Shown here one piece after another: positions 5,098-18,302 of a stretch of 64,000 nucleotides of DNA (position 1 is the stretch's first letter; each line of letters starts with the position of its first letter). The position numbers and the translations under genes were made by a program. Below the pieces are notes generated by a model. It was not told the origin of the DNA. It was given only the letters and a program-made list of their open reading frames with translations, and did not search any database. Source of the DNA: Mariniblastus fucicola (GTDB lineage: Bacteria; Planctomycetota; Planctomycetia; Pirellulales; Pirellulaceae); contig NZ_CP042912.1 of NCBI RefSeq assembly GCF_008087665.1, positions 2,356,001 through 2,420,000 on the forward strand. Direction: 5' to 3'.

Positions 5098-5189
5098 GGA
5101 TAACGACCAAGATCACCGAGCCGGGACAAGTGATCATCTATTCCAAGCAGCACGCAAGACCCGGCTTCGCGTGCATCGTATTGTTATCC
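5098..5189 (-). repeat. attC 10 (class D, short)
   Basis: 92 bp. Class D sites have the arm GATCACCGAGCC paired with CCGGCTTCGCGTGCATC; same box spacing and the same extra base as class A. Confidence 0.9.
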
Positions 5190-8646: not shown

Positions 8647-8716
8647 GGATAACGTCCGTGATCACCGAGCCGGAACCAGCGATCATCCATTTTCTAAACC
8701 ACGCGCAAGTCCGGCT
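8647..8716 (-). repeat. attC 16, left part (class D, split by IS110)
   Basis: R' box GGATAAC at 8647-8653 and the arm up to CCGGCT. It continues at 10361 after the insertion element; joined, the two parts give a normal class D site very similar to attC 30. Confidence 0.9.
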
Positions 8717-8849
8717 TATGGTCATTGCGTATCGTGATTGGTTGTCTGCCTCGGGAGCCAGAATGTAGCTCGGAGCAGGCAGACAACAGCTTATTGTTGA
8801 TACGGCGAAATTGCAAATTCTGTAATTAGTCTGTGGATAACTCAAACGC

Positions 8850-9000
8850 CTGTCGGGACGCTGACGAATCGTCCGGCCGTCGCCTAAACGACTTACCGAA
8901 GACCTTCGCAGCGTCCCGTTTCAATCACGCAAAACGAATACTCAGATGATGACTCCTTACATAAAAGACCATCCATAAGCACTTCGCGCCGTGATCGAAC
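8850..9000 (+). ncRNA. Candidate bridge RNA of the IS110 element
   Basis: Two stem-loops precede the transposase. Loop 1: a 10-bp stem 8854-8863/8909-8918, a CGAA/TTCG stem 8865-8868/8905-8908 and an inner hairpin 8879-8882/8889-8892. Its internal loop holds GTCCGGC (8871-8877), identical to the target left of the core, and CGAAG (8897-8901), complementary to CTTCG at the core. Loop 2: a stem 8924-8929/8990-8995 and CGAA/TTCG 8935-8938/8983-8986. Its internal loop holds CAGATG (8943-8948), as at the right end of the element, and CCATAAG (8973-8979), complementary to CTTATGG at the left end. Confidence 0.65.
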
Positions 9001-9036
9001 AAGCACTCGAAATCCCACTCTTGAAAGCAGGAATCC

Positions 9037-10281
9037 ATGAACAGTTTAACTCAAAAAACCGTCCTCGTTGGCATCGACTGGGCCGATCAAACCCACGCGT
9101 GGCACGTGCAAGACGGGCAAGCTCAAACCGCAGGACTTCTCCAGCAAGACGCGACCGCCATCCAGGACTGGATCCAACAGCTGCGAAAGCAATATCCCGA
9201 CAGCCAGTTCGCCGTGGCTATCGAAACCACCAAAGGAGCACTCATCTCGGCGCTGCTGGGGCACGATGATCTCACCCTCTATCCAATCAATCCCGCTGCG
9301 ATGGCGTCTTATCGGAAAGCCTTCGCTCACGGTGGCGGCAAGAACGATCCTGGTGACGCAATGCTGCTGTGTCAGTATCTGAAACACTACATCGCAAAGC
9401 TTCGACCTCTGCGGACGGAGTCGCCGTTAACCCGAAAGCTCGCTGCGATGGCCGCAGATCGCCGCCGGCTTGTCGATCAACGCACGGCACATTGCAATGG
9501 GCTCAAAGCAGTTCTCAAGACGTATTTCCCCGAGGTTCTCAAGCTTGGAGCCGCCAGGATTTACGCGGATTTTATCATTGCGTTTCTGCTTAAGTATCCG
9601 AATCTTGCGGTCGCTCAGAAAGCCGGAGCCACCAGACTGCGAAAACTGTTCTACGGCATCGGGTCTCGAGCCAAAGCCGAACAGCGCGTCCAGTTGTTGC
9701 TCGACGCGACTGCTTTGAGTGACGATTCGACTCTGATCGAAACCAATTCGATGCGAGTCGTGGCATTGGTGTCTTTGATCCAAACTTACAACGCACAGAT
9801 CCGAATCTATGCCGCACAGATCGCTGAAGCGGTGGTTGAGCATGAAGACTACGCGATCTTCAAATCGTTGCCGGGAGCCTCGGACCTGACTCACAGTCGG
9901 ATGATCGCTGCGATGGGCGACGACCGGACTCGCTACGAAGATGCCGGTTCACTTCAGGCAGCCACAGGCATCGCGCCACTAACGACTCAAAGCGGCAAGC
10001 AGCGATTCGTGTCGGCGCGTTGGGCTTGCACGAAGTTCCTCAGGCAAACGTTCCAAGAGTTCGCTGGGCTCTCGATCGCAAAAAGCAAGTGGGCTGCCGC
10101 CTATTACAAGTTTCAGTTGGACAAAGGCAAGTCACCTCAGATGGCCAAGCGTGCGTTGGCCTATAAATGGCAGCGAATTATCTTCCGCTGTTGGCAGGAC
10201 AGAGTCCCTTACGACGAAGCTAAATATATCGAGCGGCTGAAGAAAACCGGCTCACCGATCTATCAATTAATCAAGGCATGA
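9037..10281 (+). CDS. IS110 family transposase (DEDD recombinase)
   Basis: 414 residues. The N-terminal RuvC-like DEDD domain starts V-G-I-D-W-A-D, with Glu in A-I-E-T-T and the D-P-G-D-A segment near residues 106-110. The C-terminal transposase-20 domain has L-P-G-A, L-Q-A-A-T-G-I-A-P and Q-S-G-K, whose Ser is the likely nucleophile. The length fits the family. Start ATG with AGGA about 9 nt upstream. It appears intact and so possibly active. Confidence 0.95.
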   Translation: MNSLTQKTVLVGIDWADQTHAWHVQDGQAQTAGLLQQDATAIQDWIQQLRKQYPDSQFAVAIETTKGALISALLGHDDLTLYPINPAAMASYRKAFAHGGGKNDPGDAMLLCQYLKHYIAKLRPLRTESPLTRKLAAMAADRRRLVDQRTAHCNGLKAVLKTYFPEVLKLGAARIYADFIIAFLLKYPNLAVAQKAGATRLRKLFYGIGSRAKAEQRVQLLLDATALSDDSTLIETNSMRVVALVSLIQTYNAQIRIYAAQIAEAVVEHEDYAIFKSLPGASDLTHSRMIAAMGDDRTRYEDAGSLQAATGIAPLTTQSGKQRFVSARWACTKFLRQTFQEFAGLSIAKSKWAAAYYKFQLDKGKSPQMAKRALAYKWQRIIFRCWQDRVPYDEAKYIERLKKTGSPIYQLIKA

Positions 10282-10360
10282 CAGGGGAGAAACCGTCAAC
10301 AATCGATTCGAACAAAACGTTCAAAACTCCACCCGAGACTTGACACGATGCCACAGATGT

Positions 10361-10385
10361 CTTCGCGTGCATCACATTGTTATCC
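10361..10385 (-). repeat. attC 16, right part (split by IS110)
   Basis: CTTCGCGTGCATCACATT then GTTATCC; the L''/R'' half of the class D site. Confidence 0.88.
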
Positions 10386-18210: not shown

Positions 18211-18302
18211 GGATAACGTCCGTGATCACCGAGCCGGGAAGGTTGGTCATCCATTTTCAAAAGACGCGCAAGACCGGCTTCGCGTGCATCACATTGTTAT
18301 CC
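18211..18302 (-). repeat. attC 30 (class D, short)
   Basis: 92 bp; carries the uninterrupted CCGGCTTCGCG that IS110 used as target in attC 16. Confidence 0.92.

Follow-up and report, generated by a model that had tools for sequence, protein, structure and literature searches.

Whether an insertion sequence (IS) that splits an integron attC site in Mariniblastus fucicola was directed there by an RNA that the element itself carries is the question raised by this locus. The window, that is, the whole stretch of 64,000 nucleotides that was analysed, holds such an element, and a preliminary description of it had proposed two stem-loops upstream of the transposase gene, each with an internal loop, whose guides match the attC target and the two ends of the element. 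We consider it highly probable, at roughly 0.88, that this is an IS110-group element of a planctomycete which inserts by bridge-RNA guidance, with a target loop aimed at one fixed point of attC.

Anatomy of the element and of the interrupted site

The anatomy and boundaries can be read from the sequence (Table 1). Removal of the element together with one CT joins the flanks as GTCCGG-CT-TCGCG and restores an attC hairpin, and this joined site, folded as bottom-strand DNA, is more stable than expected (z -3.14, 1 of 200 shuffles as good). The core CT is also present at the right side, at positions 10361-10362. From the coordinates, the non-coding ends measure 320 nt on the left (upstream) and 79 nt on the right, and no long subterminal inverted repeats were found in the outer 80 nt of the element, where the best inverted match is 8/11. 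A longer non-coding end upstream, without long subterminal inverted repeats, is the layout of the IS110 group; the features of the IS1111-attC group, a downstream non-coding region and subterminal inverted repeats some 11-13 bp long, were not found.

Table 1. Positions of the features of the element and its insertion site, in window coordinates
Feature	Position	Strand	Remarks
Left half of interrupted attC	8647..8716	.	R box GGATAAC 8647-8653, left target GTCCGG 8709-8714, core CT
Whole IS110-group element	8715..10360	+	1646 bp, one core copy counted; basis, joined flanks
Core CT, left end	8715..8716	.	basis, joining of flanks and seven-copy relative
-10-like box TATGGT of predicted junction promoter	8717..8722	+	17 nt from TTGACA across the CT core
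Hairpin, perfect 11-bp arms	8741..8787	+	possible 5' stem-loop ahead of the bridge RNA
Predicted target-binding stem-loop (loop 1)	8854..8918	+	lower stem CGGGACGCTG/CAGCGTCCCG
Left target guide CGTCCGGCC	8870..8878	+	6/7 match before the core
Right target guide ACCGAAG	8895..8901	+	CTTCGGT on the target strand
Predicted donor-binding stem-loop (loop 2)	8924..8995	+	lower stem ATCACG/CGTGAT
Left donor guide CAGATG	8943..8948	+	matches right end 10354-10359
Right donor guide CCATAAG	8973..8979	+	reverse complement of left end CTTATGG 8715-8721
IS110-family DEDD transposase	9037..10281	+	414 aa; PF01548 1e-26, PF02371 5.1e-13
-35-like box TTGACA of predicted junction promoter	10340..10345	+
Right end CAGATGT plus core CT	10354..10362	+
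Right half of interrupted attC	10361..10385	.	CTTCGCG ... GTTATCC 10379-10385

The encoded protein contains both the DEDD RuvC domain (PF01548) and the Transposase_20 (Tnp) domain (PF02371), each above its Pfam cut-off. Against NF033542 it scores 139 bits, just below the cut-off of 140, which the proteins of two relatives, L002 and L003, exceed. The full set of D, E, D, D and serine is present when compared with the catalytic residues of IS621 given in PMC11208158: in 16 sequences E63, D104, D107 and S319 are invariant, and D14 is kept in at least 90%. The sequence of IS621 itself is weakly similar to the window transposase (E 3.5e-5). Within the 6.57-Mb genome the transposase is the sole match at E up to 0.001, which leaves one copy.

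At the junction of an excised circle, TTGACA from the right end and TATGGT from the left end would rebuild a promoter, to judge from their sequence and spacing. Seven of 12 elements combine a 17-nt spacing with a -35 box of 5-6 of 6 bases and TAT.GT, and the remaining five have a -35-like motif (4-6/6) at 15 nt instead. Directly downstream of the predicted junction promoter lies the hairpin at 8741-8787, a candidate for the 5' stem-loop reported in IS110 RNAs.

The boxes of an attC site are labelled R and L, and the joined site is an imperfect palindrome with the order R-L-loop-L-R, repeated in an array in a genome that also encodes an integron integrase. The window has intact sites with the same attC right half, one starting at 5161 and the other at 18274, and 17 sites genome-wide lie within three mismatches of that half, the element's own included, as against none for a reversed control. 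A conserved attC half-motif, at up to three mismatches, matches the window 82 times compared with 2.3 expected, and a home-made scanner likewise found 82 attC-like hairpins, compared with 1-6 in five Markov shuffles. Thus, the element sits in a very large cassette array. About 80 attC-like sites extend over 570-61003, some 1.1 Mb from the genome's sole integrase passing the curated integron-integrase cut-off. The scanner recognised the joined site of the window element only below its usual threshold; among the joined sites of relatives, relaxing the threshold still left L002 without a hit and L016 with a shifted one. Several attC calls therefore rest on reading of the hairpin together with the surrounding arrays. 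It also matched the non-attC palindrome of L006, an element inserted within a long palindromic repeat (TAACCCG...CGGGTTA) that resembles another mobile repeat.

A predicted two-loop RNA whose guides follow their targets

Between the left end and the transposase gene lies a predicted RNA of bridge-RNA layout, with two stem-loops, each with an internal loop, and a structure conserved among relatives. The two loops are supported in different ways. Loop 1 (8850-8922) forms a much stronger fold than its shuffles (z -5.0, 0 of 200 as good), whereas loop 2 alone does no better than its own (z -0.39, 73 of 200 equally good), and its support comes from the comparative alignment rather than from its own fold. 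In the naked fold of loop 1, however, the left-guide bases GUCCGG are paired, partly to the right-guide side, instead of being open. The ten-base lower stem of loop 1 covaries: across 14 elements each strand fits its own partner at 9.36 of 10 positions as against 5.35 for swapped partners, a difference reached in none of 20,000 permutations. In an alignment of six close RNAs, half of the consensus pairs (21 of 42) carry one or more kept double changes. These pair counts come from the six-RNA alignment, which has a gap similar to those of a 14-RNA alignment that was set aside because its gaps split the stem. An Rfam scan of the window returned no family reaching its gathering score.

Whole genomes and a public genome collection, the latter with 63 loci, supplied the relatives. 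With the single protein as query, no relative appeared among public genome contigs or viral contigs; an alignment query recovered the 63 loci among genome contigs and none among viral contigs. Plasmids held distant kin only (503 records at E up to 1e-40, every one below 60% identity). The 49 loci with near-full matches were kept for further work. The right end CAGATG[T/C]CT is present in 20 of 62 loci examined, the window included, and absent from 42. Consequently, the guide tests cover solely elements with recognisable ends, the 42 being excluded; also omitted were L005r, for which the upstream sequence is missing, and L014, L015 and L019, which are the same loci as L004, L002 and L013, and L007r was not scored owing to an N in its guide.

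All four short motifs that had been claimed for the loops occur where they were said to be. GTCCGGC at 8871-8877 is identical to the left flank at 8709-8715, CGAAG at 8897-8901 is the reverse complement of CTTCG in the right flank (10361-10365), and the donor guides CAGATG and CCATAAG match the element ends. As for chance agreement of the target pair, both target-guide scores are equalled at 207 of 200,000 random window positions, with CT not required. What turns four short matches into evidence is the comparison among elements, which shows that guides follow their own targets. In 15 elements, the right guide agrees with its own target at 4.47 of 5 positions, versus 1.85 for swapped targets, and in 12 elements the left guide does so at 5.5 of 7 versus 3.89, with 0 of 20,000 permutations as good in either case (Watson-Crick scoring, the right guide being scored on the 5 bases beyond the core). 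When G-U pairs are allowed, these become 0 (right) and 1 (left) of 20,000. Without near-duplicates, none of 100,000 permutations is as good for either guide (n=13 right, n=10 left), and with the window element removed as well, 0 (right) and 3 (left) of 100,000 are (n=12 and 9). The preliminary description had named loops that do not follow the target as the outcome that would speak against guidance; the loops of these relatives do follow it.

The donor guides behave differently. The right donor guide tracks the left end in all 12 elements (CTTATGG, CTTATCG, CTTATAG), in a search whose pattern left only one letter of guide and end free to vary, and the left donor guide is nearly invariant, so that its match to the right end comes without covariation. 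In genome G872, a 36%-identical relative occurs in seven copies with the same RNA and the same target, CCCTCC(C)-CT-CGCT, and the sequence shared by these copies has its boundary two target letters to the left of the predicted CTTATAG. The copies (L114, L118 and L120-L124) are identical in the RNA region and amount to a natural test of a single guide RNA over several insertions. Taken as sequence comparisons, these results support well a bridge-RNA guide mechanism for the element group.

At its own site the window element fits only in part (left guide 6/7, right guide 3/5 beyond the core), and these right-guide mismatches, together with the single copy and the decay seen among its kin, namely a remnant in a same-genus genome and a copy without its RNA end (L113), could mean that the element is a relic, formerly guided and now inactive, whose guide no longer describes its movement. 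The remnant (L008:1951-2104, minus strand) derives from a 69%-identical element, with about 136 residues matched; its right guide is unchanged and its left guide similar. However, the 414-aa frame is open and the catalytic residues, both ends, both promoter halves and both loops are all in place. We regard inactivity of this copy as unlikely, though with perhaps the strongest claim of the alternatives, and it would be compatible with bridge-RNA guidance of its ancestors.

The attC site as a proposed target of a clade

In the tree, the window element groups with L055, L014 (= L004), L015 (= L002), L003 and L016, with support of 100/100. This tree omits L002, L004 and L019 as duplicates, as well as L050 and L008, and drops eight rows whose translated match contains stops (L018, L046, L047, L051, L057, L058, L063 and L066), the worst of which probably has a frame change inside the match. 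L112 and L113 are later finds outside the tree; L112 has the same insertion and RNA as L016 and is counted once with it. The attC label requires two changes on the tree, and a single origin is compatible with it.

Several members of this clade are located in attC. Of the five clade copies with both flanks readable, four (the window element, L002, L003 and L016) lie in attC, and the distance from the core to the GTT of R'' is 15 nt in L002, L003 and L016 (for L016 counted by eye, as the script pattern missed it) and 16 nt in the window element. Among them, these four carry three distinct right guides and four distinct left guides at this one attC point. Two further copies agree by eye: L004, whose left side is beyond its contig, has GTT at +15 in its right flank, and so does L113, which is 50% identical and adjoins an attC array. 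L003 lies inside the attC array L086, and L002 is separated by seven kb, with attC sites in between, from an integrase. An integron integrase above the cut-off was found in 8 of 12 genomes searched, in the host of L016 only just, compared with 0 of 14 control genomes.

The elements could nevertheless be bridge-RNA-guided and still have landed in attC incidentally, since guides are short, near-matches occur everywhere, and big attC arrays offer many landing places. Several observations agree with this. The 14-mer of the window guides does not single out attC, with 1,248 genome sites at up to three mismatches versus 1,348 for the reversed control, and some of the 1,248 fit better than the occupied site. 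Scored out of 14 against the attC pools of their own hosts, with left-guide offsets chosen by eye, the guides of the window element, L002, L003, L016 and L055 reach 11, 12, 11, 13 and 12, and the best of seven control guides on the same pools reaches 11, 11, 10, 11 and 9; hence, the window element ties with the best control, and L002 and L003 lead by one. When all attC pools are considered, L003 reaches up to 14 and L002 up to 13, in attC of other planctomycetes. The window element is single-copy, L055 lies outside attC, and the right guide of L003, which is also that of L016, shows no excess in its own array L086 (2 versus 2.4 expected), its counts in L105 and L106 being 5 versus 2.5 and 3 versus 0.8.

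Against a merely incidental landing stand the four clade members that reach the same attC point, 15-16 nt from the GTT of R'', with differing guides. In addition, right-guide 7-mers are enriched in own-host arrays. The 7-mer at the attC point equals the window right guide CTTCGGT in 75 of 82 attC-like window sites, and, with the element removed, the window contains 86 copies of CTTCGGT versus 7.8 expected (11-fold); for the L002 guide CTCACGT, 4 kb of one host integron contig contain 6 copies versus 0.5 expected (12-fold) and the other contig 4 versus 1.0 (4-fold). Control guides in these counts lie mostly near expectation, with raised values for L012 (8 versus 2.0), L010 (4 versus 0.8) and L011 (4 versus 0.7). 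L055, despite its position, has guides that fit the attC of its own host at 12 of 14, and control guides reach at most 9; the host integron sites matched are L109:3205 and 3772. Incidental insertion is improbable to our minds, and we infer that attC is selected as a target and is more than a place where insertions often land.

Guidance itself is supported by the covariation of guides and targets. That the element is programmed to enter integron sites, as the preliminary description had it, has moderate support, with four of five copies in attC, one outside and a partial fit at the window's own site. On the sequence evidence, specialisation on attC appears moderately supported for the clade and least supported for the window copy itself. 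We lean slightly towards a broader proposition, that a planctomycete IS110-group lineage specialises on integrons, with target loops tuned to one conserved attC point and rewritten as host attC types differ, and with RNA guides that evolved independently of those of the IS1111-attC group.

Proposed mechanism and relation to known elements

For bridge-RNA-guided insertion into attC, we infer transcription, RNA binding, circle formation and catalysis along the following lines. The element would be excised as a circle, which would join TTGACA of its right end to TATGGT of its left end across the CT core and so create a promoter. This promoter would transcribe the upstream region, and the resulting RNA would fold into a target-binding and a donor-binding loop. 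The donor loop would pair with the element's own ends and the target loop with both attC strands around CT, whereupon the DEDD/Ser transposase would recombine the two CT cores. The target loop would be aimed at a fixed attC point, with the core CT about 15 nt inside the GTT of R'', and related elements would retain this point and alter the guide letters to suit other attC types.

Most of these features have counterparts in IS621 and other IS110-group bridge-RNA elements (PMC11208160, PMC11208158): a transposase with DEDD and Tnp domains, an RNA upstream of its gene with two internal loops, a left guide for the bottom strand and a right guide for the top strand, a CT core, a promoter rebuilt at the circle junction (reported for IS621 in PMC11208158), and a variable target loop beside a conserved donor loop. 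IS621 differs in its 328-residue chain, as against 414 aa here, and, according to the same two papers, in targeting REP elements rather than integron attC. ISEc21, which is of IS110 type, resembles the window element in its upstream non-coding region and IS110 guide order, and differs in a transposase size cluster of 345-385 aa, as against 414 aa (PMC11187229).

The target class is shared with another group. In the IS1111-attC group (ISKpn4, ISPst6 and ISPa25, PMC11187229; ISPa21, PMC11616780), RNA-guided elements enter a specific place in the attC of gene cassettes, RNA guidance having been shown for ISKpn4 and ISPst6 (PMC11187229). Targeting of attC is ascribed to IS1111-group elements in PMC11187229, PMC11616780 and PMC11089894, and in one paper also to group IIC introns. 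The abstract of PMC11616780 speaks of IS110, but the element named in its text, ISPa21, belongs to the IS1111 group. PMC9229058 cites the IS1111 attC case and describes Shewanella integrons with five IS110-family insertions, all outside attC. Literature that largely excludes subscription journals and preprints yielded no earlier description of an IS110-group lineage in attC.

On the strength of that shared target, the window element could be taken for a member of the IS1111-attC group, with a seekRNA downstream of the transposase and subterminal inverted repeats. That assignment is very improbable: the longer non-coding end is upstream, inverted matches within the outer 80 nt reach no more than 8/11, the guide for the bottom strand comes first, which is the order given for IS110 and not for IS1111, and the transposase has 414 aa compared with 330-350 aa for IS1111. 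The IS1111 group has its RNA downstream, subterminal inverted repeats and the opposite guide order, whereas the window element has the IS110 layout, planctomycete hosts and guides that differ between elements. Targeting of attC by IS1111-group elements is what was known, and the window element is their IS110-group counterpart. Hardly credible at all is chance agreement of the loops in an RNA that is merely a 5' leader or attenuator of the transposase gene: each match is just 5-7 nt and loop 2 folds no better than shuffles, but this is contradicted by the swap tests on 15 right and 12 left guides, by the right donor guide following the left end in all 12 elements and by the seven G872 copies with one target.

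If bridge-RNA guidance to attC is true of this lineage, an IS110-group lineage that reaches attC with a differently built RNA would amount to a natural experiment in guide reprogramming, in which the protein and the donor loop stay and the target loop changes with the attC of the host. It would supply natural guide-target pairs for work on bridge RNAs, and it would bear on how cassette arrays get disrupted or frozen.
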